A DNA stretch of 64,000 bases, taken from assembly GCA_030681675.1 (NCBI GenBank), contig JAUXRP010000017.1, positions 1 to 64,000 on the forward strand, given 5' to 3'. The position numbers and the translations under genes are program-made. The notes beneath the pieces are model-generated. The model was not told the origin of the DNA. It made no database searches and was given only the letters and a program-made list of their open reading frames with translations. Of the stretch, positions 36,484 through 51,181 are shown in pieces; position 1 is the stretch's first letter; each line of letters begins with the position of its first letter. The stretch comes from Candidatus Planktophila sp. (GTDB taxonomy: Bacteria > Actinomycetota > Actinomycetes > Nanopelagicales > Nanopelagicaceae).

Positions 36484-37908
36484 ATGGAAAAGTTAACGAA
36501 CTTTATTAATGGCAGCGCCGTAGACAGCACTTCCGGTGAAACAAGCTCTCTTATAAATCCATCTACAGGAGCGGCATATGCAACTGCGCCGAAATCAAAT
36601 GCAGCCGATATCGATACCGCATTTCGCGCAGCAAGTGATGCATTTCCTGGGTGGCGCGACTCAACACCATCGCAACGGCAACGAGCACTATTAAAAATTG
36701 CAGATGCAATTGAAGATCGCCAGAGCGAAATAATTGCAATTGAATGTCGAAATACAGGTAAGCCAATTTCCTTAACTACGACGGAGGAAGTTCCACCAAT
36801 GGTCGATCAAATTCGATTCTTCGCTGGAGCTGCAAGAAACCTTGAAGGTAAATCTGCCGGCGAATACATGCCGGGTATGACATCGATGATTCGCCGCGAA
36901 CCTGTCGGTGTCATCGGCCAAGTAACGCCATGGAACTATCCGATGATGATGGCCGTGTGGAAATGGGCACCTGCAATTGCAGCTGGCAATACCGTTGTCT
37001 TAAAGCCAAGTGATACGACACCGGCATCAACTGTATGGATGGCATCACTGATGGCCGAGTATTTACCTGACGGAGTCTTCAATGTAGTTTGTGGCGAGCG
37101 CGAAACTGGACGTGCAATGGTTGAACACAAGCGTCCTGACATGGTTTCAATAACAGGTTCAGTTGGAGCTGGAATTCAAGTTGCCCAATCTGCAGCTGCC
37201 CAACTTAAGCGTGTTCATTTAGAGTTAGGTGGCAAAGCTCCCGTCGTTGTATTTGCCGATGCCGACTTAGAGGCCGCAGCCGAAGCTATTGCGATCGCTG
37301 GATATTTCAATGCTGGCCAGGACTGCACCGCCGCAACTCGCGTGATTGTTCAAGCGAACGTGTATGAGGATTTTGTAGCACTTTTGAGCGCGCAAGCTAA
37401 GGCAGTTGCCATCGGTGCACCAGATGAAGATGTCTTCCTCGGTCCAGTAAATAACGCCAACCAATTAGCGCGAGTTTCGGGCTTTCTTGATCGCCTACCA
37501 ACACATGCCAGCGTCATGAGTGGAGGAAGCGCCCTAGACCGACCAGGATTTTTCTTCCCAGCAACCGTTGTCGCCGGCCTGCACCAAGATGACGAGATGA
37601 TTCAAAATGAAATTTTCGGACCCGTTATCACGGTCCAGAGTTTTAGCGATGAGGCCGAGGCGGTATCTATGGCAAATGGTGTTGACTATGGCCTTGCATC
37701 AAGCATCTGGACTAAGGATCATGGCCGTGCAATGCGTATGGCCAAGGCCTTTGACTTTGGTTGTGTATGGATCAATACACATATCCCCGTCGTCGCTGAA
37801 ATGCCACATGGTGGCTTTAAACGTTCAGGCTACGGTAAAGATTTATCGGCCTATGGTTTTGAAGATTACACACGGATTAAGCATGTAATGACCAATCTTG
37901 GGGCATAG
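36484..37908 (+). CDS. Aldehyde dehydrogenase, likely gamma-aminobutyraldehyde dehydrogenase
   Basis: 474 residues of the NAD(P)-dependent ALDH family. QVTPWNYPMMMAVWK (about 140-155), the catalytic Glu in LELGGKAP and the catalytic Cys in GQDCTAATR (about 280) are intact. Sequence style and immediate linkage to a polyamine importer suggest oxidation of 4-aminobutyraldehyde to GABA, as with PatD/PuuC. Betaine-aldehyde or another aminoaldehyde are alternatives. It has no ribosome site, consistent with leaderless translation. It heads the cluster that continues with the substrate-binding protein 40 bp downstream. Confidence 0.8.
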   Translation: MEKLTNFINGSAVDSTSGETSSLINPSTGAAYATAPKSNAADIDTAFRAASDAFPGWRDSTPSQRQRALLKIADAIEDRQSEIIAIECRNTGKPISLTTTEEVPPMVDQIRFFAGAARNLEGKSAGEYMPGMTSMIRREPVGVIGQVTPWNYPMMMAVWKWAPAIAAGNTVVLKPSDTTPASTVWMASLMAEYLPDGVFNVVCGERETGRAMVEHKRPDMVSITGSVGAGIQVAQSAAAQLKRVHLELGGKAPVVVFADADLEAAAEAIAIAGYFNAGQDCTAATRVIVQANVYEDFVALLSAQAKAVAIGAPDEDVFLGPVNNANQLARVSGFLDRLPTHASVMSGGSALDRPGFFFPATVVAGLHQDDEMIQNEIFGPVITVQSFSDEAEAVSMANGVDYGLASSIWTKDHGRAMRMAKAFDFGCVWINTHIPVVAEMPHGGFKRSGYGKDLSAYGFEDYTRIKHVMTNLGA

Positions 37909-37948: not shown

Positions 37949-39121
37949 ATGGCAACAGAGCGATCAATCTCACCAGAGGCACGTTCAATTCTTGGCGCTC
38001 GCATTTCGCGCAGAAGCGTTCTTGCAGGCGCAGGCGGATTAGGAGCTGTCGGCTTACTAGCAGCATGTGGTGGTGGCGGTGATTCAGCTACTGAAAACAC
38101 AGTGAGATGGGGCAACTGGCCTTTGTATTTAGATTTTGATGAGGCAACCAAAACCTATCCAACTCTCGTTAAATTCTCTGAGTCAACTGGAATCGATGCA
38201 CAGTACTTTGAAGATTACAACGACAACGATGAGTTCTTTGGAAAAGTACAGGCACAGCTCAAGCTCGGCGAAGACATTGGCTATGACGTAGTCACACCAA
38301 CTGACTGGATGGCGGCGCGATGGATGCGCCTTGGATATACACAGAAATTTGATTTAGCAAATATTCCAAATGCAGGAAATATTTTGGACTCTCTTAAATC
38401 TCCATCGTATGACCCTATGCGCGAATCATCACTAACGTGGCAGGGCATCATGGCTGGCTTTGGTTGGAATACTGAAAAGAATCCAAAGGGCATACGTACT
38501 CTCGATGAACTCTTTGCACCACAGAACAAAGGCAAGATCGTTGTACTCACTGAAATGCGTGACACGATTGGAGTAATTCTTCTTGCTCAAGGCGTAGATA
38601 TTACAACGGTCACTGAAGATCAATTTATGAACGCAGTTGATTTCATGGCCGGAAAGATTTCCGATGGTTGGATTCGTGGAGTTAAAGGCAATGAATATGC
38701 TGAAGATTTAACTTCAGGTGATGCAACCGCAGTTATCGGCTGGTCAGGGGATATGTTCATTCTCGCAAATGAGAATGAGGGTAAGTTCGACTTTGCAATT
38801 CCAGAGTCGGGCGGCACAATCTCAGGTGATAACTTGATGATTCCATCCACGGCCTCACCAACAGGTAAAGCAAATGGCGAAAAATTAATTAATTATTACT
38901 ACGATCCTGTAGTGGCCGCCGAAGTTGCCGCTTATGTTAATTACGTATGTCCAGTTCAGGGAGCTCAGGCTGAGATGGAGAAAATCGCTCCAGAGCTTGC
39001 AACGAGTGAGTTCATTTTCCCTAGCGAAAATACTTCTTCTCGCCTCCATGTATTCCGCTCATTGACTCCAGCAGAAGAGACAACTTGGGCCGAGGCCTTT
39101 CAGCAGGCTCAAGGCAATTAG
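37949..39121 (+). CDS. Polyamine ABC importer 1, Tat-exported lipoprotein receptor (PotD-like)
   Basis: 390 residues. The signal region has a twin-arginine-type SRRSVLAGAGG (residues 20-30) followed by a lipobox ending LAAC with Cys40, so the protein is probably folded before export and lipid-anchored. The mature part has the PotD/PotF layout: VRWGNWPLYLDFDE, DVVTPTDWMAARW and VIGWSGDMFI. These resemble polyamine receptors; which polyamine cannot be told. An AAGGAG site precedes the ATG. The ATPase gene begins on its stop codon (TAGTG). Confidence 0.85.
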   Translation: MATERSISPEARSILGARISRRSVLAGAGGLGAVGLLAACGGGGDSATENTVRWGNWPLYLDFDEATKTYPTLVKFSESTGIDAQYFEDYNDNDEFFGKVQAQLKLGEDIGYDVVTPTDWMAARWMRLGYTQKFDLANIPNAGNILDSLKSPSYDPMRESSLTWQGIMAGFGWNTEKNPKGIRTLDELFAPQNKGKIVVLTEMRDTIGVILLAQGVDITTVTEDQFMNAVDFMAGKISDGWIRGVKGNEYAEDLTSGDATAVIGWSGDMFILANENEGKFDFAIPESGGTISGDNLMIPSTASPTGKANGEKLINYYYDPVVAAEVAAYVNYVCPVQGAQAEMEKIAPELATSEFIFPSENTSSRLHVFRSLTPAEETTWAEAFQQAQGN

Positions 39122-40266
39122 TGGCAATTGATCCAATTGCCGCACGTGGGGATTTACAGTTAACACGAATCACTAAGTCTTACGGTGATTTCAAAGCCGT
39201 TGATGATTTAACGTTAACGATTCCTAAAGGCTCTTTTTTCGCACTTCTTGGACCTTCGGGCTGTGGCAAAACAACGACGCTGCGCATGGTTGCCGGACTT
39301 GAAGAGCCAACGGTTGGAAGTATTTACTTAGGTGATACTGACATAACTACGACTCGCCCCTATCAACGTCCTATCAATACCGTTTTTCAAAATTATGCAC
39401 TATTTCCACATTTAACTATCTTTGAAAATATCGCTTTTGGTTTACGCCGCCGTGGAGTTAAAGATGTTAACGAGCAGGTCGATAAAGTGCTCAACCTAGT
39501 TGAGCTTCCGCATCTTGCCGAGCGCAAGCCAACACAGTTATCCGGTGGACAGCAACAGCGCATTGCACTTGCCCGTGCAATTGTTAATCGACCAGCGCTC
39601 TTACTATTGGATGAGCCACTTGGTGCACTTGATTTAAAACTGCGCCGTCAGATGCAGATTGAACTCAAGTGGATTCAACGCGAAGTCGGCCTGACTTTTG
39701 TGCACGTGACTCACGATCAAGAAGAGGCTATGACAATGGCCGACACAATCGCAGTTATGAACGAAGGCAAGATTGAGCAGATGGGCTCACCAGTTGATTT
39801 ATATGATGATCCAGAGACTGCATTTGTTGCAAACTTTCTTGGACAGTCAAATCTGATTAAAGGAAAGATTGAAGGAAATGATGGTGATAATTTAGTTATC
39901 GATCTCTTTGGCCAAAAGATATCTATGCCCAAGTCGCGCTCTCATGCCGTCGATAACTCCCTCTATGCCGGAATTCGTCCAGAGAAGTTCCGTATTTCAC
40001 GCACAGGTTCGGATGTGCGTGGCAACTTTCTCACTGGTGGGCGAATCGAAGATGTTTCATATATCGGCGTGAGTACGCAGTATGTGGTTGCAATGCCATG
40101 GGGACAAGAGTTGATGGTCTTTGAACAAAACGATGATGGGGTACCTCCATTTAATAAAGGTGAAGATGTTGTCATCTCGTGGGAACCAAGCTTTACTTTT
40201 GGTCTTCGCGGAGATGAAGATATTGAAGCAGGTACTGAGGTAGATCTAGAGCAGTTAGATGAATAA
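39121..40266 (+). CDS. Polyamine ABC importer 1, ATPase (PotA-like)
   Basis: 381 residues. Walker A GPSGCGKTT, signature LSGGQQQRIALARA, Walker B LLLLDEPLGALD, and the switch His in VTHDQEEAMTMAD are all intact. The C-terminal TOBE-type domain (from about residue 255) is typical of PotA/CysA-like subunits. The GTG start shares a base with the preceding stop. I reject a start 12 codons upstream because it lies inside the receptor gene and lacks a ribosome site. Confidence 0.9.
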   Translation: MAIDPIAARGDLQLTRITKSYGDFKAVDDLTLTIPKGSFFALLGPSGCGKTTTLRMVAGLEEPTVGSIYLGDTDITTTRPYQRPINTVFQNYALFPHLTIFENIAFGLRRRGVKDVNEQVDKVLNLVELPHLAERKPTQLSGGQQQRIALARAIVNRPALLLLDEPLGALDLKLRRQMQIELKWIQREVGLTFVHVTHDQEEAMTMADTIAVMNEGKIEQMGSPVDLYDDPETAFVANFLGQSNLIKGKIEGNDGDNLVIDLFGQKISMPKSRSHAVDNSLYAGIRPEKFRISRTGSDVRGNFLTGGRIEDVSYIGVSTQYVVAMPWGQELMVFEQNDDGVPPFNKGEDVVISWEPSFTFGLRGDEDIEAGTEVDLEQLDE

Positions 40267-40272
40267 AGAGTA

Positions 40273-41133
40273 ATGAGCATGACCTTACCAAAGGTGCGTG
40301 TTCCTTACCTGTTGTTATTTCCAGGTTTTGCATTTCTCTTCACTTTCTTCATCCTTCCAATTGCTAACTTAGCTCAGACATCAACCCAAACTCCTATTGT
40401 TGGGGGTGATACAGGTCAAAATGAGCAGACATTTGCTTTTAGCAATTACATCAATGCCTTTCTCGAAAATAAAGAGCAGTTTGGCCGCTCATTTATTTAC
40501 GCCTCCCTTGCAACTATTTTTGCTTTGGCTATCGCCTATCCACTTGCCTACGCAATTGCATTTAAGTCAGGCAAATTTAAGAATATTTTGTTGGTTTTAG
40601 TTGTTGCGCCATTCTTTACATCGTTTTTGCTCCGTACAGTTGCCTGGAAACAAATCCTTGGTGAAGAGGGTTTTCTAGTTCCAACACTTCGAAGCCTGAA
40701 CTTAATGGGCGAGCAGACCACGATAACTTCCACTGCCGTAGCAGTAGTGGCCGGTATGACGTATAACTTTCTTCCCTTTATGACCCTACCTTTATATGCC
40801 TCTCTTGAGCGCATAGATCCGCGCACTATTGAGGCCTCGGGAGATCTTTATGCCAATGCGATCACAACTTTCCGCAAAGTTACGGTCCCGCTTTCGATGC
40901 CCGGAGTTGTCGCCGGCACTTTGCTTACATTTATTCCAGCAGCCGGTGACTATGTAAATGCCGCTATTCTCGGAAGCCCGAACACAAAGATGATCGGAAA
41001 TGTTATTGAGTCACGCTATTTCAAGATTGTTGACTATCCAACGGCCGCGGCACTCTCATTTACTCTGATGGCCGCAATCTTAATTCTTGTAACGCTCTAT
41101 ATTCGAAAAGCCGGGACGGATGAGTTGGTATGA
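40273..41133 (+). CDS. Polyamine ABC importer 1, permease (PotB-like)
   Basis: 286 residues, about six membrane helices. The ABC permease coupling loop is visible as TIEASGDLYANAITTFRKVTVPLSMPGVVAG (EAA-type, about 190-220). The large extracytoplasmic segment after TM1 is typical of PotB-class subunits. It starts 6 bp after the ATPase stop and overlaps the next permease by four bases. Confidence 0.88.
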   Translation: MSMTLPKVRVPYLLLFPGFAFLFTFFILPIANLAQTSTQTPIVGGDTGQNEQTFAFSNYINAFLENKEQFGRSFIYASLATIFALAIAYPLAYAIAFKSGKFKNILLVLVVAPFFTSFLLRTVAWKQILGEEGFLVPTLRSLNLMGEQTTITSTAVAVVAGMTYNFLPFMTLPLYASLERIDPRTIEASGDLYANAITTFRKVTVPLSMPGVVAGTLLTFIPAAGDYVNAAILGSPNTKMIGNVIESRYFKIVDYPTAAALSFTLMAAILILVTLYIRKAGTDELV

Positions 41134-41966
41134 GTACTAAAACCATAGCTCCCAGTATTCCTACAATTCCATACAAAGCTCGCCTCGCGCGTTGGTTTGG
41201 GCGTAACCTTCTTCGCATTTACATGGTCTTTGGTTTTAGCTACCTCTTTATTCCAGTTGCATATACCTTCGCATTTTCATTTAATGATTCAGGCAAAAGC
41301 AATTTAATTTGGAAGGGTTTTACCTTAAACAACTGGCAAAACCCTTGTGGCGCTCCACAAATTTGTAACGCGCTTGGCAACTCAATAAAGATTGGCTTAC
41401 TAGCCACCATTTTTTCAACGATTCTTGGCACGATGATTGCCTTTGCGATTGGCCGATATCACTTCGCGGGACGCTCAAGCTCTAACCTTCTAATTTTCTT
41501 ACCAATGGCTACCCCAGAAATCGTTTTAGGTGCATCTTTACTCTCTCTGTTCTTAGTATTTAAAGTTAATCCAGGCTTCTGGCCTACTGTTATTGCACAT
41601 GTAATGTTTTGTATCTCATTTGTAGTAGTCACCGTTAAGGCCCGTATCGCCAGTTTAGATCCGCGCCTTGAACAAGCGGCAATGGATTTATATGCCAATG
41701 AAGTTGAAACTTTCCGCCGTGTAACTCTTCCACTTGTAGCCCCAGGAATTGCCGCTGCTGCCTTACTTGCATTCTCACTCTCGTTCGATGATTTTATTAT
41801 CACAAACTTTAATTCAGGAACAATGACGACTTTTCCAAAGTTTGTCTATGTCTCGGCCGCGCGTGGCATACCTGCTCAGGCAAATGTCATTGGATCGTCG
41901 ATGTTTTTCTTGGCTTTAGCTATTGTTATAGCGGGGCAGTTAGTAAACCGTAAAAAAGCACGCTAA
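41130..41966 (+). CDS. Polyamine ABC importer 1, permease (PotC-like)
   Basis: 278 residues, about six membrane helices, with the coupling loop LEQAAMDLYANEVETFRRVTLPLVAPG (about 172-200) and the conserved SFDDFIITNF before the last helices. It completes a receptor-ATPase-permease-permease set. A fragment of a close paralogue of this gene's 3' end lies at 48423-48613. The stop is followed within 15 bp by the broken copy of the amine-oxidase start. Confidence 0.88.
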   Translation: MSTKTIAPSIPTIPYKARLARWFGRNLLRIYMVFGFSYLFIPVAYTFAFSFNDSGKSNLIWKGFTLNNWQNPCGAPQICNALGNSIKIGLLATIFSTILGTMIAFAIGRYHFAGRSSSNLLIFLPMATPEIVLGASLLSLFLVFKVNPGFWPTVIAHVMFCISFVVVTVKARIASLDPRLEQAAMDLYANEVETFRRVTLPLVAPGIAAAALLAFSLSFDDFIITNFNSGTMTTFPKFVYVSAARGIPAQANVIGSSMFFLALAIVIAGQLVNRKKAR

Positions 41967-42080
41967 AGGCCGGATAGCACGATGGCCACCATCGATCCCT
42001 CTATTCTTAAACATCTCATCTATATGCAGTCAGCTTTGTACTGACTAGATGAAGATCCACTAGAACCTTTGCCACATCCA
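41785..42080 (+). repeat. Left direct repeat bracketing the 6.35-kb polyamine module
   Basis: This segment (end of the PotC-like gene plus start of the oxidase) recurs at 48432-48614 plus 48731-48845. The permease part is about 85% identical (27 differences counted over about 183 bp). The oxidase part is about 93% identical (8 over 115 bp). The right copy is split by a 116-bp insertion. Confidence 0.9.
41982..42080 (+). pseudogene. Truncated 5' fragment of the FAD amine oxidase
   Basis: It matches the first 33 codons of the intact oxidase at 48747 (MATIDPSILKHLIYMQ.ALY). Trp21 is changed to a stop (TGA at 42042-42044), and homology ends at about 42080. The upstream 15 bases (AGGCCGGATAGC.CG) are also shared. 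It cannot encode a working enzyme and marks one edge of the inserted module. Confidence 0.92.
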
Positions 42081-42164
42081 GCTTTGAACTTTGCATAGTG
42101 CCGTCATCAGGTGGATCTTCTCTTCCGTGTTTAAAGCGTACTCACTTCTTGGCTAAAAGTGACG

Positions 42165-43163
42165 CTATTTATCTATAGATGATGTTTTACGGCCCGAGCG
42201 TTTAAAAGCTTCAATTAAAATATAACTATAGAGTTGCGTAATTCCTTCGACGACATTACCTATATTTTCAAGATAGGCATTCAGTAATTTTCTACTTGTC
42301 ATTGCGACTTCAAATAGAATTTGGTAATCGCCAGAAATTGTTGCCAAATATCTAACATGGTTATCAAGTATTAACTTTTCTGCAATTATTGAAACGTCTC
42401 GGGGCGCGCATTTAATCCACATCCAACACTCAACAGGGAAACCAATCACCGCTGGATTTACAACAGCATGAATTGAGAGCGCGCCAGAATCAAGAAGTTG
42501 AGTAGTTTTCCTACGAGCCGTTGCTTCTGTGAGTCCGCAAGCCCGCGAAATTTGGTCAAAGGTAGCTCGTCCATTCTTAGAAAGAATCTCAAGGATGAGT
42601 TGATCATCGGGTAGCAACTCAATTTCTTCAATTGGACGTGGAAGAAGCTCCATCGAAATCTTTTCACGCTCTTCATGTGTAAGAATACCAGGGTTCCACT
42701 GCGCGGCAGTTCGATAATATTTTAAACAGCTCGAGGAGTTTACAGCGATGACTCCAGGAATTCCTGGGATGAAGTTGAGCAAAATATCGGATAACAAGGA
42801 AGGACTTCCAAATATTTCGCTGATACATTCATTTGTCCCGGTAGTTAAGTAGACGAAGATTGTTTCAGGTAGATTTGCTAGAGCAGTCGCCACAATTGTG
42901 TTAGCTCCGGGTGCGCACGTAACACGAACAATCATGGCCTCCTTGCGTGCCATGGCCCCTCTTTCAATGAGACCCGTGACCTGAATAACGCCTCGTGCGA
43001 GCAGCTCTTGACCTCGGCGCGAGACTGTGCGATCGGGCAGTTGGAGCACCTCGGCGATAGTAGTAAAAGCCGCTCGCCCATCTACCTGCAGATAACCAAT
43101 GATCCTTCGATTGATCTCGTCCAATTCTTCATACATGGCCATAAGTTTGGCGATTTCCGTCAC
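42165..43163 (-). CDS. Double-domain Lrp/AsnC-family regulator
   Basis: 332 residues, twice the usual Lrp length. It reads as two HTH units (EINRRIIGYLQVDGRAAFTTIAEVLQLPDRTVSRR at about 15-50; DDQLILEILSKNGRATFDQISRACGLTEATARRK at about 185-220), each followed by a RAM-like ligand domain. Such tandem Lrp proteins are known in actinobacteria. It is divergent from the second polyamine importer, so control of that operon by an amino acid or polyamine is a reasonable inference. The start is uncertain: a GTG gives this length, and ATG codons 7 and 9 codons later are alternatives; none has a clear ribosome site. Confidence 0.75.
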   Translation of the reverse strand: MTEIAKLMAMYEELDEINRRIIGYLQVDGRAAFTTIAEVLQLPDRTVSRRGQELLARGVIQVTGLIERGAMARKEAMIVRVTCAPGANTIVATALANLPETIFVYLTTGTNECISEIFGSPSLLSDILLNFIPGIPGVIAVNSSSCLKYYRTAAQWNPGILTHEEREKISMELLPRPIEEIELLPDDQLILEILSKNGRATFDQISRACGLTEATARRKTTQLLDSGALSIHAVVNPAVIGFPVECWMWIKCAPRDVSIIAEKLILDNHVRYLATISGDYQILFEVAMTSRKLLNAYLENIGNVVEGITQLYSYILIEAFKRSGRKTSSIDK

Positions 43164-43244
43164 TTCGTGTCAAGTATTGATATTTGTGGCGCAATATGTG
43201 AATCTCCTCTCACACAATGAAGTATCTAGCCAAAGGTGGGCCAT

Positions 43245-44315
43245 ATGGCCAAAGATGTAGGGTGGGCAGATCTGACCATCGCCGGAGTTTCGAAGAGTTT
43301 TCGCGATCCTAGGGGCGCTGAAGTTAAGGCATTAGATGGCGTGAACCTTGATATTCCAACAGGGGAGTTTGTCGTCCTACTTGGGCCATCCGGTTGTGGA
43401 AAGACTACCTTGCTACGAAGCATCGCGGGTTTTGAAAAAATCGATGCCGGCTCGATTAATTTGGGTGGAAAGCGAATAGACCAACTGCCACCTCATAAGC
43501 GCCCTGTCAATACCGTCTTTCAAAGTTACGCGCTTTTCCCTCACATGAGCGTTGCGCAAAACATTGCATTTGGCCTGGAGAATGAAAAAATTGAAAAAAA
43601 CGAGGTTAATTCTCGAGTTGCTCAAGTATTGGAGCTTGTTGAGATGAGTGCGCTCGCCGAACGTAAGCCATCCCAGATGTCGGGAGGACAGCAACAGCGT
43701 GCTGCACTTGCGCGCGCACTTGCTAAAAAACCTAAAGTGCTTCTCCTTGATGAACCTTTGGCCGCGTTGGATTTGAAACTACGTAAATCAATGCAGATTG
43801 AACTTAAAAGAATTCACCGCGCCACTGGAACTACCTTCCTCTTTGTGACCCACGATCAGAATGAAGCAATGGCACTTGGCGATCGAATTGCAGTATTTAG
43901 CAATGGTCAACTTCAACAAGTAGGTACCCCGTATGAAATTTACACGGCTCCGAAAAGTGAGTTTGTTGCAAACTTCATAGGTGAATCAACGGTTCTACAT
44001 GGTGAAGTAAATAAGAGTTCTTTTAATGGCGATGGATTGACCATCCATGAATTGCCAGATTCCATAAAAGAGAGTCGCAACGGTAAATTGATTATTCGTC
44101 CGGAAGCACTTTCATTGATAACCGGAACAAATAATTGTGGCCAGGCCGAGCTGAAAGAGGTCATCTTTGCTGGTGATGCTCTTGAGGTTTTGCTATTAAC
44201 GTCAACTAGGTGCGAAGTAAAAGTTAAATCCGATGTATCTCTTTTGGCGCAACTCAAAATCGGTGATAGCTATGAACTCTTTGTCGATACACATCAAATT
44301 GGCCAGCTGGCTTAA
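43245..44315 (+). CDS. Polyamine ABC importer 2, ATPase (PotA-like)
   Basis: 356 residues. Walker A GPSGCGKTT, signature MSGGQQQRAALARAL, Walker B LLLDEPLAALD, and VTHDQNEAMALGD are intact, followed by a shorter TOBE-type domain. It resembles the importer 1 ATPase but is clearly diverged, and gene order differs (ATPase first, receptor last), so it is not a tandem copy. ATG 43245 has an AAAGG site 8 bp upstream and is preferred to the GTG three codons earlier, which overlaps that site. Confidence 0.9.
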   Translation: MAKDVGWADLTIAGVSKSFRDPRGAEVKALDGVNLDIPTGEFVVLLGPSGCGKTTLLRSIAGFEKIDAGSINLGGKRIDQLPPHKRPVNTVFQSYALFPHMSVAQNIAFGLENEKIEKNEVNSRVAQVLELVEMSALAERKPSQMSGGQQQRAALARALAKKPKVLLLDEPLAALDLKLRKSMQIELKRIHRATGTTFLFVTHDQNEAMALGDRIAVFSNGQLQQVGTPYEIYTAPKSEFVANFIGESTVLHGEVNKSSFNGDGLTIHELPDSIKESRNGKLIIRPEALSLITGTNNCGQAELKEVIFAGDALEVLLLTSTRCEVKVKSDVSLLAQLKIGDSYELFVDTHQIGQLA

Positions 44316-45194
44316 ATGAAGATAAGCGCGCGTCGTGAACGTGCTCCTGGATTTTATGGTCCTAGCTCCGTTTCAATTCCAGCCTATGTAACTGGAATCC
44401 TGTTGGTTGGCTGCCCACTCATTGTTATAACAATATTCTCATTTCTCCAGCGCGGAGATTTTGGTTCAGGGGTAATTCATAAATTCACTCTCGACGCTTA
44501 CCGAACCGTATTCTTCGAGACCGATCTGATGGGCGTTAAATCCTTCAACTTCTCATTTCTTTCCATCATTTTGAGATCGGTTATTTTAGCTTTTACTGTC
44601 ACAGTAATCTGTTTAATTGTTGGTATTCCAACCGCAATTTGGATAGCCCTTCAGAAGAAATCAACGCAACGACTCTTAATAGCTTTAGTTACGATTCCAT
44701 TTTGGGTTAATGTTTTAGCTCGCACCTATGCATGGATGCTTCTTTTAGCCGATGGTGGACTATTTAATCAATTAGGTGCACCAGTCTTGCTTTATACATC
44801 TTGGGCCACCTTTATCGGGCTGACATACGCCTTTTTGCCCTTCATGGTTCTACCAATATATGCATCGGCAGAAAAGCTAGATAGAAGTATTTTGGAGGCC
44901 GCCTTTGATCTTGGGGCTTCCGGGTGGCGAGTACTGCTTCGAATCGTAATCCCGATGATTAAGTTTGGAATTTTCGCTGGAGTTGCCATTGTCTTTATCC
45001 CAGCACTTGGTGCCTATGTTCAGCCAGCTTTACTCGGTGGTAATAAGACAATGCTCATTGGAAGCTTAATTAATGATCAATTTGGTGAATCTCGTAACTG
45101 GCCAGTCGGTTCGGCCTTGGCGGTACTTCTCCTTGCTATGACAGGAATTATTCTTCTTTCTACGCGCAAACGTAAGTTGGAGTTTGCACGATGA
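44316..45194 (+). CDS. Polyamine ABC importer 2, permease (PotB-like)
   Basis: 292 residues with about six membrane helices. The coupling loop SILEAAFDLGASGWRVLLRIVIPMIKFGIFAG (about 192-222) is typical. ILRSVILAFTVTVICLIVGIPTAIW and the C-terminal helices fit the PotB/HydroxyMP-type inner-membrane subunit. It abuts the ATPase stop directly and overlaps the next permease by four bases. Confidence 0.87.
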   Translation: MKISARRERAPGFYGPSSVSIPAYVTGILLVGCPLIVITIFSFLQRGDFGSGVIHKFTLDAYRTVFFETDLMGVKSFNFSFLSIILRSVILAFTVTVICLIVGIPTAIWIALQKKSTQRLLIALVTIPFWVNVLARTYAWMLLLADGGLFNQLGAPVLLYTSWATFIGLTYAFLPFMVLPIYASAEKLDRSILEAAFDLGASGWRVLLRIVIPMIKFGIFAGVAIVFIPALGAYVQPALLGGNKTMLIGSLINDQFGESRNWPVGSALAVLLLAMTGIILLSTRKRKLEFAR

Positions 45195-46006
45195 GGCAGA
45201 GACAGTGGAGCGTGGCAAACTTGCCGCTCATTCGACCAATCTGCATTGCGAGTTTAGTTTTCCTATATCTCCCACTCTTGACGGTCTTAGTTTTCTCCTT
45301 CAATACGTCTGAAGATGCAACAGTGTGGAGTGGATTTTCGACACGGTGGTACAGCACAATTCTAGAGAACACAGATTTAATTCGAGCTGCAAAAGTCTCT
45401 CTTTCGATTGCAATTCCATGTGCCATTATCGCCGCGCTTATTGCAACTGGATTGGCAATTGGAATGGGTATTGCAACTGGCAAATTCCAGAACGCTCTCC
45501 GCGCATTAGTTAACGCACCTCTCGTGCTTCCAGAAATTGTTACTGCTGTCGGAACGCTTGCACTATTTTCATTAGTTGGGGTTCCTCTTCATTATTTCTC
45601 ACTCTTATTTGCTCACGTGGTAATGTGTGTGCCTTTTGCATTCTTGCCTATTCGCTCTCGTCTACGCGATTTCGACCAAAACATATTTGAAGCAGCCCGT
45701 GATTTAGGAGCAAGTTCGGTACGAGTAATGATGAAGATTACTGTTCCTCTGCTAATTCCGGCGTTGCTTTCAAGCGGCTTACTTTCATTCATTATCAGTA
45801 TGGATGACTTTCTCACTTCTCTCTTTGTATCGGGCCCAGAAACTACAACGTTGCCTATCTATATTTTCGGACTTTTGAAACTGGGAGCAACTCCAGAAGT
45901 AAATGTAATAGCCGCACTATTGCTAATCATCCCAACTCTGGGGTTATTAGCAGGAATCACATGGAGCACAACAAGGAGGAGAAGCAATGAAGCTAGGAAT
46001 AAGTAA
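45191..46006 (+). CDS. Polyamine ABC importer 2, permease (PotC-like)
   Basis: 271 residues, about six helices. The coupling loop is FEAARDLGASSVRVMMKITVPLLIPALLSSG (about 165-195), followed by SMDDFLTSLFVSGP, the PotC-type equivalent of the SFDDFIITNF segment in importer 1. Its last 20 bases overlap the receptor gene, which carries its own AGGAGG site inside this gene. Confidence 0.87.
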   Translation: MRQRQWSVANLPLIRPICIASLVFLYLPLLTVLVFSFNTSEDATVWSGFSTRWYSTILENTDLIRAAKVSLSIAIPCAIIAALIATGLAIGMGIATGKFQNALRALVNAPLVLPEIVTAVGTLALFSLVGVPLHYFSLLFAHVVMCVPFAFLPIRSRLRDFDQNIFEAARDLGASSVRVMMKITVPLLIPALLSSGLLSFIISMDDFLTSLFVSGPETTTLPIYIFGLLKLGATPEVNVIAALLLIIPTLGLLAGITWSTTRRRSNEARNK

Positions 46007-47096
46007 GTTAACTATGGGGCATCGAAAGCGCTTAGCGCTGGCGAGTGTCGCAACTGCCGTCTCGTTACTTGTCGGAATCGGGATTCCACAAGCAGGTGCA
46101 GCAGGTCTGTATCCAAGCAAGCCAAAGGGGACCGAACTCAATCTCTACAATTGGAGTAATTACATTGATCCAGCTCTACTGAAGCGCTTTACTGTTGAGA
46201 CTGGAATCAACGTAAATCTCGGCGTTTACGACAGCAATGCTCAAATGCTTGCAAAGCTAGAGGCTGGCGCACGTGGATACGACATTATCGTGCCAACTGA
46301 TTACATGGTTCAGATCATGAAGAAAAAAGGTTTGCTACAACGCATTCACCGTAGTTCATATCCAAATGGCGGAAATCTAAAGTCCGAGTTTTTAAACCCA
46401 TACTTTGATCGTGGACGCTTCTATACGGTGCCTTATCTTCATGGTCTAACTGGATTTGGATACCTGAAGGACAAAGTAACAACAGAGCCGAGCACTTGGA
46501 AAGAGTTCTTTGCTGCTATCCCATCATATCCAGGCAAGACAACTATCTTTGATGACAAGAAAGAAGTTATCGATGCTGCACTACGTTCAATGGGGTACAA
46601 GCCTTGTACTAAAAATGTAGCTCAACTTCAAAAGGCCCAGGATTTAATTAAGTCGATTAAGCCAAATCTAAACACGATTGCTAGCTCGGGAAACATTGGA
46701 CGTTTATCAGGCGGAACGTCGGTTCTCTTGATGATGTATAACGGCGCTACCTATAAGGCGAAGCTTGCCAATCCAAATGTTGTTTTCGTCTATCCAAAAG
46801 ATGGAATGCCCTTATGGCAAGACAACTTTGCAATACCAGTTGGCGCTAAGAACATTGATAACGCCAAGATCTTCCTTAATTGGATGATGGATCCAAAAAA
46901 CATCGCCCAAGCATCCAACTGGGCTGCTTACAACAACGGTATTGCAGGATCTGAGAAATACTTATTACCTGCAATGCAAGCAGACACAGCATTCTCGCCA
47001 ACAGCTGCACAGATGGCTTTGGGCGTTGCAATGGCTCCATGCTCAACAGAGGTAAATGATCTATACACAAAAGTATGGACTGCGTTTAAGGGATAA
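45987..47096 (+). CDS. Polyamine ABC importer 2, substrate-binding protein (PotD-like)
   Basis: 369 residues. A long Sec-type signal region (KRLALASVATAVSLLVGIGIPQAGAAG) has no lipobox cysteine, unlike the receptor of importer 1. The mature part starts ELNLYNWSNYIDPALLKRFTVETGI, close to the PotD/PotF start, and contains DIIVPTDYMVQIM. It could bind putrescine, spermidine or a related cation. Retention at the cell surface must depend on an uncleaved anchor or on the permeases. An AGGAGG site lies before the ATG. Confidence 0.85.
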   Translation: MKLGISKLTMGHRKRLALASVATAVSLLVGIGIPQAGAAGLYPSKPKGTELNLYNWSNYIDPALLKRFTVETGINVNLGVYDSNAQMLAKLEAGARGYDIIVPTDYMVQIMKKKGLLQRIHRSSYPNGGNLKSEFLNPYFDRGRFYTVPYLHGLTGFGYLKDKVTTEPSTWKEFFAAIPSYPGKTTIFDDKKEVIDAALRSMGYKPCTKNVAQLQKAQDLIKSIKPNLNTIASSGNIGRLSGGTSVLLMMYNGATYKAKLANPNVVFVYPKDGMPLWQDNFAIPVGAKNIDNAKIFLNWMMDPKNIAQASNWAAYNNGIAGSEKYLLPAMQADTAFSPTAAQMALGVAMAPCSTEVNDLYTKVWTAFKG

Positions 47097-47107
47097 CTAG
47101 AGAGTGC

Positions 47108-48364
47108 GTGGCACCTCACTTCGAGGGTCTTGGTGCCGCGCACGATCTATCTCATTTAAATCGGAAGAACTTAATGGAAGAGAGAGTTGAATTTGTGTTG
47201 AAAAATATTGGGAATCAATTCAATAGTGCAGATATTAATCTGGACAATTGGAAGGACTTTCCTTATAGTGCATATACATTTCAAAATGTGGCAGAACTGA
47301 TTCCAGTCCATGAAATAAGTGGCCCGGGGAGTGCAGCAATTCCAAAGGAGATAGATTTTTCGCTATTGGCAAGTAGCTACGACATTTCTGGGAAGATGCA
47401 AACAGGTGCTGACTTTCTGCGCGATAGTTACACAGATGCACTTTTAGTTGTAAGAAATGGCACAATTGTGGCTGAGTATTTTGCTAATGACATGAATCTT
47501 CATACTCCCCACTTAACTTTTTCGGTCAGCAAGTCAATCACTGGAATCATTGCAGGAATAGTTTTGAAGAAGTTTGGCATTAGTTCAGATGTAAAGGTCT
47601 CAACAATCATTGATGGAACAAGCGGCGGAGCTTATGCCGATGCCTCAATTCGAAACCTGCTCGATATGAGTGTTAGTTTGGATTTTGATGAGAGTTATGC
47701 CAGTAAAGAGGGTGTGTATGCTAGATATCGCCAAGCGATGCTATGGATGTCGCGAGAAAAGGGTTCTGAGTACTCTGAAGAAGATTTAGAGAAATTCATT
47801 CTCTCGCTTCCAAAGGCGCAGGGCGAACATGGTTACCGATTCTCTTACAAATCACCCAATGCAGATCTTCTCGGATTGGTAGTGCAAAAAATTTCGGGTA
47901 AGCCATTGGCTCAATTGATTTCCCAAGAATTATGGCAACCATTGGGATGCGGTCCAGCAACGATAACGATTGATAGAAAAGAGATGGCCCGAACTGCCGG
48001 AGGCTTGAGTTGTTCAATTAGCGACCTAGCACTTGTCGGTGAATTAATGCGACGTAGCGGAAAAGATGGTGAAGAGAGTTTAATTGATCCGATCTGGGTC
48101 GTTGATACCTTTGCCCATGGTGACGCACAAGCCTGGACACGTGGCGAGTTTTATTCTAGTTTTCCTAAGGGCGCCTATCGAAATCAGTGGTACTCGATTG
48201 GTGAGGGAGAGCTTTGCGCCATTGGAATCCACGGCCAGTGGATTTACATCAACACAGTTAAAAAAATAGTAATTACGAAGTTCTCCTGCCAACCGACGGC
48301 AGATGATGATGAGCTTGACCGAAAGAGCCTGGATTTCTTTAGGGCGGTTTCCAACAGGCTTTAA
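47108..48364 (+). CDS. Serine hydrolase, class C beta-lactamase/NylB-like
   Basis: 418 residues from the GTG. SVSK at about 139-142 is the SxxK catalytic pair, YKSPN at about 245-249 supplies the Tyr motif, and GIHGQ near residue 378 is the third motif. No signal peptide is evident, so it is probably cytoplasmic, unlike the membrane-anchored relative at 6592-7734. It lies 11 bp after the second receptor and is likely cotranscribed. I infer an amidase or esterase acting on an imported amide or ester; the substrate is unknown. ATG 22 codons later (47174) is an alternative start, since homology to the family begins well after it. Confidence 0.72.
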   Translation: MAPHFEGLGAAHDLSHLNRKNLMEERVEFVLKNIGNQFNSADINLDNWKDFPYSAYTFQNVAELIPVHEISGPGSAAIPKEIDFSLLASSYDISGKMQTGADFLRDSYTDALLVVRNGTIVAEYFANDMNLHTPHLTFSVSKSITGIIAGIVLKKFGISSDVKVSTIIDGTSGGAYADASIRNLLDMSVSLDFDESYASKEGVYARYRQAMLWMSREKGSEYSEEDLEKFILSLPKAQGEHGYRFSYKSPNADLLGLVVQKISGKPLAQLISQELWQPLGCGPATITIDRKEMARTAGGLSCSISDLALVGELMRRSGKDGEESLIDPIWVVDTFAHGDAQAWTRGEFYSSFPKGAYRNQWYSIGEGELCAIGIHGQWIYINTVKKIVITKFSCQPTADDDELDRKSLDFFRAVSNRL

Positions 48365-48746
48365 AGTCCTAACGCAAACTTTAGCTCACTGGAATCTTCG
48401 GCTTTAATAAACACTGGAAATTCATTCTCAATCGATGACTTCATTATTACTAACTTTAATTCGGGCACCATGGTGACATTTCCGAAGTTTGTCTATGTTG
48501 CCGCCGATCGCGGAATACCAGCTCAGGGAATTGTCATCGGATCGTCGATGTTTTTCTTAGCTTTAGCCATTGTAATAGCGGGGCAGTTAGTAAATTGTAA
48601 AAAAGCACGCTAAAGTATCCTTTGTATCCATGACGAACTACAGGGCATTACAAGAAAACCTGCGTTATGGGGTTAGGTTCCGGAGGACCCGGGCCAGCTC
48701 ATAGTTATGATTGAAGGGGTGATTCCGGTCAAGGCCGGATAGCGCG
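48365..48746 (+). other. Intergenic stretch before the amine oxidase
   Basis: This gap of about 380 bp holds a 58-bp segment without recognisable content, the permease fragment (48423-48613), a 116-bp insertion (48615-48730) and the 15-bp conserved lead-in to the oxidase. The insertion contains possible stems (GGGTT with GACCC around 48679-48699; CCGG-TCAAGG-CCGG at its 3' edge) and a 24-codon ATG ORF of no recognisable family. Confidence 0.6.
48423..48613 (+). pseudogene. 3' fragment of a PotC-like permease gene
   Basis: About 60 codons, in frame and ending in TAA, match the C-terminus of the importer 1 permease (DDFIITNFNSGTM.TFPKFVYV and IAGQLVN.KKAR). There is a 6-9 bp gap near its 5' edge and no start codon or upstream domains. 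It is the right-hand half of the duplicated junction. Its divergence from the intact gene is larger than that of the adjacent oxidase start. Confidence 0.9.
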
Positions 48747-48845
48747 ATGGCAACCATCGATCCCTCAATTCTTAAACATCTCATCTATATGCAGCCAGCT
48801 TTGTACTGGCTAGATGAGGATCCACTAGAACCTCTGCCGCATCCA
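48731..48845 (+). repeat. Right direct repeat, oxidase part
   Basis: Matches 41966-42080 with eight differences. The first half of the right repeat is at 48432-48614. These two segments define the right boundary of the 6.35-kb module. Confidence 0.9.
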
Positions 48846-50159
48846 ACGTTAATCGGTGATGCCACAACTGATTTATGCATTGTCGGGGCTGGTTATACCG
48901 GTCTCTGGACCGCGCTTCTGGCAAAAGAGCAGAACCCAGAACGTGAAGTGATTCTGCTCGAGCGACTCGAAACGGGCGCTGGCGCATCAGGGCGAAACGG
49001 TGGTTTCTGTAGCTACTCACTTACACATGGATTTATGAATGGTTACAACCGTTTTAAAGATGAGATGGCGATTATCGAAGGCATGGGACGTGAAAATTTA
49101 GATGGTATCGAAGCAACAATTAAGAAATACGGCATTGAGTGCGATTTTGAATTCAATGGCGAACTCCGTGTTGCAATTGAAGCGTGGCAGATGGAGTCGA
49201 TGATAGAAGAAGCAGGTCTGCGAAACTCTTTCGGCGATAATGTTGAAATTTTGGATCAAAACCAAATTCAAGCTCGCGTTAAATCTCCACTGTACCAGGG
49301 AGCGTTGTGGGATCCAGATGGCACCGCACTCGTTGATCCAGCACGTTTAGTCTGGGGTTTAGAGCGAGTGTGCATAAAACTTGGAGTAAAGATTTTTGAA
49401 AATACTCATGTGGAATGGCTAGAGCGAACTAATAGCGGAATGATTGTTCATACACCATACGGAAGTGTGTACGCTCAGAAAGTTGCACTTGCAACTAATG
49501 TATTTAAATCACTTGTAAGGCGTGCCCATAAGTATGTAGTGCCTGTATATGATTTTCAATTAGTAACAGAGCCTTTGACGCGCGAACAGTTAGATTCAAT
49601 TGGTTGGAAAGGTCGAGAGGGTTTATCTGATGCTGGTAATCAGTTCCACTATTATCGACTGACGAAAGATAATGAGATTTTGTGGGGCGGTTATGATGCA
49701 ATTTATAATTTCCGAGGAAAAGTGCGGCAAGAGTATGAATCTGATGCAGAAACCTACGCCCACCTGGCGGCGGCTTTTCTAGAAACTTTCCCGCAGCTCA
49801 AAGGAATTAAATTCACACATGGTTGGGGCGGTGCTATTGATACCTGCTCACGCTTTTCACCTTTTTGGGGCAAGGCATATCGGGGCCGCGTTGCCTATGT
49901 ATTGGGATATACGGGTCTTGGAGTAGCTTCAACACGTTTTGGAGCACAAGTAATGCTCGACCTCTTAGATGGCATCGATAATGAACGAACACGTCTTGCT
50001 ATGGTTCGCAAAAAACCATGGCCTTTCCCACCTGAGCCATTTAGATTTATCTTTATTCGCCTTACGCAATGGTCCATAAATAGAGCCGATGAAAAGGGCG
50101 GCAAACGCAACTTATGGCTTAAGCTTCTGGATTTATTGGGTTTAGGGTTCGATTCCTAA
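48747..50159 (+). CDS. FAD-dependent amine oxidase (DAO/PuuB-like)
   Basis: 470 residues. The dinucleotide motif LCIVGAGYTGLWTALLAKEQ (about 43-62) and ATG-like GASGRNGGFCSYS are typical of the D-amino-acid-oxidase fold and of gamma-glutamylputrescine oxidase-type proteins. The C-terminal GYTGLGVASTRFGAQ closes the FAD site. It likely oxidises putrescine or a gamma-glutamyl derivative to the aldehyde used by the dehydrogenase at 36484. PuuA and PuuD are not in the window, so the exact substrate is open. A broken copy of its 5' end is at 41982. Confidence 0.8.
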   Translation: MATIDPSILKHLIYMQPALYWLDEDPLEPLPHPTLIGDATTDLCIVGAGYTGLWTALLAKEQNPEREVILLERLETGAGASGRNGGFCSYSLTHGFMNGYNRFKDEMAIIEGMGRENLDGIEATIKKYGIECDFEFNGELRVAIEAWQMESMIEEAGLRNSFGDNVEILDQNQIQARVKSPLYQGALWDPDGTALVDPARLVWGLERVCIKLGVKIFENTHVEWLERTNSGMIVHTPYGSVYAQKVALATNVFKSLVRRAHKYVVPVYDFQLVTEPLTREQLDSIGWKGREGLSDAGNQFHYYRLTKDNEILWGGYDAIYNFRGKVRQEYESDAETYAHLAAAFLETFPQLKGIKFTHGWGGAIDTCSRFSPFWGKAYRGRVAYVLGYTGLGVASTRFGAQVMLDLLDGIDNERTRLAMVRKKPWPFPPEPFRFIFIRLTQWSINRADEKGGKRNLWLKLLDLLGLGFDS

Positions 50160-50182: not shown

Positions 50183-51181
50183 ATGACCAACCACGGCAAC
50201 ATGTATGGCCCTGACTTTACCTTTCTTGGAATCGAAAGGTGTGATCTAGATATTGAATCTACTTTCGCCGATGCCGATGTAGTAATTGTTGGCGCTCCAA
50301 TTGATAGCGGAACATCACATCGCTCTGGTGCAAAGTTCGGTCCACAAGCGATTCGTGGAGGAGATTATCTTCCGCACGATGGCGAACGCCCACATCTTGC
50401 GCTTCGAATCGATGCATTGAACACGATGAAAGTCGTCGATGCCGGGGATTTAAGGATGCCTGGCGGTGACCTAGTCGCATCCCTTGAAGTGTTAGCTCAA
50501 GCTACCGAAAAAATCTCTCGAGCCGGTGCAATTCCAGTAATTCTCGGAGGCGACCATTCAATAGCTTCGGCCGATGTCGCAGGAATTGCACGACACCGAG
50601 GTCTAGGGACTATCTCAATGATTCACTTTGATGCCCATGCTGACACAGGTGAAGATCAATGGGGTGCATTGATTGGACATGGAACTCCGATGCGCCGTTT
50701 AATTGAAAGTGGAGCGGTGCGTGGTGATCGTTTTTTACAACTTGGACTTCGTGGATATTGGCCAGGTCCAAAGACCTTGGATTGGATGCGCGATCAAGGA
50801 ATGCGCTCATATGAAATGACCGAAATACATCACCGGGGATTAATTTCGGTTTTAGATGAATCTTTTGCCACACTCACCGATGGCTGCGAGGGAGTTTTCT
50901 TATCCGTTGATATTGATGTAGTGGATCCCGGAATGGCGCCAGGTACAGGAACACCTGAACCCGGTGGAATGACTAGCCGCGAACTTCTTGAATCAATCCG
51001 CCGAATCTGTCTTGAACTACCAGTAGTCGGAATGGATGTCGTAGAAGTGGCACCGGCCTTTGATAACGCCGATATAACCGCGATCCTGGCTAACCGGGTC
51101 GTACTTGAGGCGTTGAGTGCGATTGCCAAGCGTCGTTCGGGTGAGAGGTATTCACCTACACAAAACCTTCTGGATCGCTAA
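50183..51181 (+). CDS. speB: Ureohydrolase, probably agmatinase
   Basis: 332 residues of the arginase/agmatinase fold. All metal-binding motifs are intact: GGDHSIAS (about 116), HFDAHADTGED (about 149-159) and SVDIDVVDPG (about 246-255). The length and N-terminal region match agmatinases, which release urea from agmatine to give putrescine. Linkage to polyamine uptake and oxidation genes supports this, but guanidinobutyrase or a related guanidino hydrolase remains possible. Expression is probably from the adjacent leaderless promoter, and dxr begins directly after its stop. Confidence 0.78.
   Translation: MTNHGNMYGPDFTFLGIERCDLDIESTFADADVVIVGAPIDSGTSHRSGAKFGPQAIRGGDYLPHDGERPHLALRIDALNTMKVVDAGDLRMPGGDLVASLEVLAQATEKISRAGAIPVILGGDHSIASADVAGIARHRGLGTISMIHFDAHADTGEDQWGALIGHGTPMRRLIESGAVRGDRFLQLGLRGYWPGPKTLDWMRDQGMRSYEMTEIHHRGLISVLDESFATLTDGCEGVFLSVDIDVVDPGMAPGTGTPEPGGMTSRELLESIRRICLELPVVGMDVVEVAPAFDNADITAILANRVVLEALSAIAKRRSGERYSPTQNLLDR

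Follow-up and report, generated by a model that had tools for sequence, protein, structure and literature searches.

A direct duplication of the permease-oxidase junction flanks an accessory importer-amidase cassette, and a conserved candidate RNA leader precedes the oxidase, in a Candidatus Planktophila operon

Nanopelagicaceae-type actinobacteria are among the most abundant freshwater bacterial groups. In one such genome, the stretch of DNA analysed here (the window, 64,000 nucleotides) holds a polyamine-type operon in which a block of six genes lies between the permease gene potC1 and an oxidase gene, with pieces of both genes on either side. This raises the question of how the block came to lie there with both neighbours still whole, and of what the junction contained before. 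The features concerned are as follows.

36484-37908, forward strand: aldehyde dehydrogenase of the aminobutyraldehyde dehydrogenase type, first gene of the native operon (NCBIfam NF010000 above cut-off; same place in relatives)
37949-41966, forward strand: native polyamine-type importer 1 (family matches; position in relatives), with potD1 (37949-39121), potA1 (39085-40266), potB1 (40273-41133) and potC1 (41130-41966; intact, 278 aa)
41785-41966, forward strand: left permease tail, within the intact potC1; sister species G240 is its sister in the tree
41967-41981, forward strand: left junction, which has lost the RNA leader and is 118 nt shorter than its right counterpart, with a shared AAG at the join
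41982-42080, forward strand: broken oxidase start
42081-48431, no strand: inserted segment, with the conserved module proper at 42166-48364; missing at the junction of 62 relatives
42165-43163, reverse strand: regulator with two Lrp/AsnC-type HTH regions (Pfam PF13404 in two stretches, PF01037)
43236-47096, forward strand: importer 2, complete and of the PotABCD type (family matches), with potA2 (43236-44315), potB2 (44316-45194), potC2 (45191-46006) and potD2 (45987-47096)
47108-48364, forward strand: beta-lactamase-fold serine hydrolase of the NylB (6-aminohexanoate-dimer hydrolase) type (PF00144)
48432-48613, forward strand: right permease tail, a diverged potC fragment
48747-50159, forward strand: FAD-dependent oxidase of the DAO family (PF01266; intact, 470 aa)
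50183-51181, forward strand: ureohydrolase of the agmatinase/guanidinobutyrase type (TIGR01230 above cut-off)

In terms of function, the closest solved structures to potD2 are putrescine/spermidine-binding proteins, and the module hydrolase matches the NylB structure 1wyb over 360 residues (E 1.9e-46). The likeness to NylB consists of this match; the module hydrolase differs in being linked to a polyamine-type importer, and its NylB-like assignment comes from homology. Host operon and module together would serve the use of polyamines or their amides. The two-HTH regulator is divergent from the importer operon, a layout shared with at least three other congeners.

Two gene pieces, the 3' end of potC1 and the first part of the oxidase gene, are present on either side of 42081-48431 in direct orientation. 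A mechanical repeat search paired 41775-41968 with 48422-48615 (85% identity over 194 nt) and 41961-42085 with 48726-48850 (90% over 125 nt; 93% over 115 nt by BLAST). Searched against their own genome, these repeats give E-values of 3e-56 for the permease and 3e-43 for the oxidase, far beyond chance. Both lie where an earlier, sequence-only reading of this DNA had placed them, and its comparison of permease tails (85%) as more diverged than oxidase starts (93%) is correct. The left oxidase copy is broken, as had been claimed, by a TGA at codon 21, with homology running out at about 42080, and the right permease copy is indeed a tail of just the last ~60 codons. The same reading described the right copy as two pieces; the pieces are real, but it passed over the ~118 nt between them (48616-48733), which the left copy lacks and which form part of an RNA leader.

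The scar was seen in one genome only. There is no tRNA gene in the 64-kb window, and the absence of transposase and terminal repeats noted earlier holds; none of the ORFs around the insert encodes a transposase or integrase, and 38-52 kb contains no inverted repeats of 30 nt or longer. A 10-nt inverted repeat at 42051/42111 was rejected as a structure, its folding being no better than that of shuffles. Pattern scans for an intrinsic terminator in the left scar or the leader likewise gave no more than shuffles, and the flanks 42081-42170 and 48360-48440 matched no other sequence compared.

Related genomes show the junction without the insert. In all 62 relatives in which both genes are readable (47 of the same genus and 15 from other genera of the family), potC and the oxidase are 13-134 nt apart with nothing inserted. 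In eleven congeners the operon could be followed for most or all of its length and has no module, and the genomes lacking it at the junction include G240, G223, G195, G199, G193, G260 and G024. The sister species G240 has 92-98% protein identity to the window operon; neither it nor G223 has the module anywhere in the genome. Thus the uninterrupted junction and the strains without the module, both proposed as checks, do exist.

The module itself was found elsewhere. A potD2 search of 296 genomes of the order gave close relatives in five only: G251, G193, G260 and G253 at 87-92%, and G290 at 73%. Three of them (G193, G260 and G251) carry the six genes in the same order as the window, aligned over essentially the full 42166-48364, as a 6.2-kb unit with 72-74% DNA identity; G253 is only partly collinear. 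In these three genomes the module adjoins yaaA and/or recA, and in G199, G024 and G195 yaaA and recA are adjacent, with the module site empty. Since the intact module adjoins these genes elsewhere and that site is empty in relatives, the module is, judging from the loci compared, an accessory cassette that has been inserted at two sites.

Furthermore, the window module is 72% identical to that of G193 and G260 while core genes are at 80%; between G193 and G260 the values are 87% for the module and 85% for the core. As module and core thus change at similar rates in that pair, the window module is too distant for vertical descent, which argues that it was not inherited along with the core genes. 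Absence at the site from close relatives (62/62), the same unit at a second site and a divergence at odds with core genes are all traits of an accessory cassette. As for a carrier, cargo of a phage or plasmid was rejected, with no module on viral contigs and all plasmid relatives of potD2 below 60% identity.

These observations probably reflect the arrival of the 6.2-kb cassette at the potC-oxidase junction by recombination with DNA of a related lineage. A horizontally moving cassette (Lrp-type regulator, PotABCD-type importer, NylB-like amidase) would have entered the junction on incoming DNA in which it was followed by a diverged potC 3' end. On the left this would leave a complete potC and a dead oxidase start, on the right a potC tail, the RNA leader and a complete oxidase, and the redundant pieces alone would decay. 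Both neighbour genes stay whole, since what was duplicated runs from the end of potC into the start of the oxidase gene. Physically, the event may have been either a template switch during replication or an integration guided by short homology. A cassette joined to a potC tail was found neither in the five genomes of the order that carry the module nor on viral contigs, and the donor is possibly unsampled. In addition, the two nearest relatives are without the leader, which calls for at least one additional loss or recombination.

The ancestry of the two copies bears directly on this reading. In a tree of 63 permease tails (182 columns) the topology is (RIGHT,(LEFT,G240)), with support of 99/83 and 99/92. 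Right and left tails differ by 18 synonymous and 6 non-synonymous codon changes, and third codon positions hold 20 of the 27 changes (p = 2e-5). Since the changes are mainly synonymous, unlike decay after a recent duplication, the right tail would have diverged mostly while it still belonged to a functional potC. Four of the six replacements (A25D, A32G, N33I and R55C) alter residues constant in G240, G223, G195 and G199, as would be expected from later decay. The proposal that the right permease tail came from a donor is backed by its position in the tree and by the synonymous-rich changes, and its import from a related lineage is supported by this comparison. In the oxidase-start tree (104 columns) LEFT, RIGHT and G240 form one clade (100/88), with LEFT, the copy with the stop codon, on a longer branch.

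The left side is not untouched. Identity to G240 falls to 82-93% over the left flank (40.1-41.7 kb), while that between G240 and G223 stays at its usual 85-92%. The stretch 40084-41700 of the window is a mosaic patch against G240. As the left flank is mosaic too, recombination touched both sides; the claim of a foreign right side therefore stands for the right tail, but foreign DNA is present in the left flank as well.

A template switch within the lineage, where the fork jumps into module DNA and back upstream, duplicating the genome's own sequence, with the right tail diverging later, is an unlikely account of the same data. Template switching typically leaves a direct duplication flanking the insert, the 118-nt deletion of the left junction lies at a 3-nt shared AAG, and the two oxidase starts group with G240 in one clade. 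The permease tails speak against it, in that the right one branches outside LEFT and G240 and its mostly synonymous changes are not those of unconstrained decay after duplication; the module sequence is itself foreign.

Two further accounts have still less in their favour. It is very improbable that the assembly joined contigs of two strains at similar sequence: the scar is interior to a 191-kb contig, the two copies are mismatched at 7-15% of sites, the sequence at each module joint is unique, each neighbour gene is intact on its proper side and the left oxidase copy shows a stop codon and decay. Such an artefact would fit the occurrence in one genome only, the relatives being mostly metagenome assemblies, and the short identical runs common to both copies. 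Least probable is a site-specific mobile element, be it a transposon, an integron cassette or an integrase island, although such an element would fit a cassette whose gene content is the same at two different sites in the genus. The marks of a transposon or integrase island (a recombinase gene, long terminal inverted repeats or a tRNA site) were not found, target-site duplications are far shorter than the hundreds of bases repeated here, and no relative occurs on viral contigs or, at 60% identity or above, on plasmids.

Import of the cassette together with a foreign potC end, the reading preferred here, resembles known routes of gene gain. Direct repeats of the target junction flank the insert, and the neighbour genes are whole, as in insertion-duplication (Campbell-type) integration; in contrast to that process, no circular carrier is known here and the repeats are 85-93% alike rather than identical. 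The cassette is also like flexible genomic islands gained by homologous recombination in aquatic bacteria, in its absence from most relatives, varied sites, mosaic flanks and lack of a recombinase, but differs from them in that the host junction can still be read as a direct duplication on both sides, with a dead gene start. The scar would be an example of streamlined freshwater actinobacteria acquiring a whole catabolic cassette with host genes unbroken and no recombinase involved. As a type of event it is ordinary, and the RNA leader is the part of greater interest.

The leader occupies the spacer between permease and oxidase, which is ~130 nt long in most relatives and 83-85% conserved, against 75-79% in flanking coding DNA. 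Its parts in the window are listed below.

48616-48758, forward strand: structured RNA leader of the oxidase (model match 133 bits; covariation)
48628-48635/48663-48670, forward strand: helix P1
48641-48644/48659-48662, forward strand: helix P1b
48680-48693, forward strand: almost invariant core CCGGAGGACCCGGG
48714-48722, forward strand: Shine-Dalgarno-like AAGGGGTGA, 3' of the core
48724-48728/48735-48739, forward strand: last hairpin, between the Shine-Dalgarno-like AAGGGGTGA and the ATG

The case for a structure rests on covariation, the folding energy of the single window copy being unremarkable (z -1.6). Among 35 diverse copies aligned, 94% of cells are paired and 15 of 23 pairs show double changes; none of 500 shuffles reaches any of these measures, and slid controls are 31-47% paired. 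A structure-fitted alignment of 94 copies agrees on covariation. The leader thus shows compensatory changes beyond chance, as a structured cis-regulatory RNA should. RNAalifold adds the long-range pairs CCGG/CCGG and ACCC/GGGU, whose columns are invariant, so that no covariation signal is possible there. A small ORF in the leader was rejected, since the ATG at the leader start in the window is missing in most relatives.

No Rfam family matched the leader, with E-values up to 1 allowed for the window and up to 5 for 10 diverse relatives, and a known riboswitch or leader class for 48616-48746 was rejected at these permissive thresholds. The few weak Rfam matches in those relatives fell near a single terminator in L111; they involved leader/terminator models and did not reach the gathering scores. 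On its sequence conservation, the leader is an uncatalogued, strongly conserved candidate cis-regulatory RNA, new with respect to Rfam.

A pattern scan of 84,980 genomes returned 111 stretches. Among the 80 matches listed, all but one chance match come from freshwater-type actinobacterial records, and the oxidase is downstream in 74; the other six are the chance match, four at contig ends and one with its start masked by N. The gene upstream varies, and is apparently divergent in L126. Since the upstream neighbour varies and the oxidase is constant, the leader belongs to the oxidase, holding the constant place before one gene that is expected of a cis-regulatory RNA. There is one copy per genome. 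Five weak class-wide matches outside the family (E 0.002-0.008) were treated as chance, as was a pattern match in Acidobacteriota (L196) with no model support.

The leader is sometimes lost. In G240 and G223 the junction is an unrelated 18 nt with no leader, and in G228 it is 16 nt long. G206, G012, G006 and G001 (61-64 nt) have kept no more of it than the Shine-Dalgarno part and the final hairpin; hence the upstream domain can disappear as a whole. At the left scar junction it was removed by a deletion of 118 nt between two AAG triplets. The sequence-only reading had assumed a contiguous ancestral operon; uninterrupted it was, as the relatives show, but as permease, ~130-nt leader and oxidase rather than in tight contact. 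As the ancestral junction had the leader, it is the right copy that is complete, and the left one has undergone a deletion.

In terms of role, the leader most likely governs the start of oxidase translation, and it is possibly a riboswitch. It resembles translational riboswitch leaders in that a covarying leader with an invariant core is followed by a Shine-Dalgarno and the start of a nitrogen-metabolism gene; it differs from them in having no Rfam match, in being confined to one bacterial family and in being known from sequence alone. To our knowledge, natural polyamine-sensing RNAs are very few. Guanidine-II and -III are translational riboswitch leaders (PMC12186494), and the spermidine riboswitch class is a SAM-I variant acting on transcription, whose authors expect more polyamine-sensing RNAs (PMC10853860). 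A riboswitch survey of the first complete acI genomes covered thiamine, FMN and cobalamin models only (PMC5301498). In the open-access literature we found no paper joining Nanopelagicales with a riboswitch, and the Planktophila paper omits the leader. We tentatively suggest that the ~130-nt leader could be a new riboswitch class of Nanopelagicaceae only, sensing a compound of the polyamine pathway and controlling oxidase translation, and that the cassette put a second importer and an amidase directly upstream of it. Strongly conserved, present once per genome and tied to one gene in an abundant freshwater group, the leader is noteworthy.

The insertion may also have changed the transcription of the downstream genes. 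The intact oxidase starts 383 nt past the cassette hydrolase, and a pattern scan found no promoter or terminator beyond chance between them, so the oxidase and ureohydrolase may now be under the cassette promoter and cotranscribed with it.

Lastly, three minor observations concern the same operon in other records. In G010 (L094, C219, 2284-6298) potDABC1 is swapped for a far more diverged importer, with 60-78% protein identity, that sits between the conserved dehydrogenase and oxidase, which is another replacement at this operon. G223 (L085, 6961-8631) has ~1.7 kb extra between oxidase and ureohydrolase, a further insertion. Six metagenome records titled Bifidobacterium breve or Streptomyces griseus (L185, L193, L201, L211, L213 and L241) hold the freshwater actinobacterial locus, and their organism labels look wrong.
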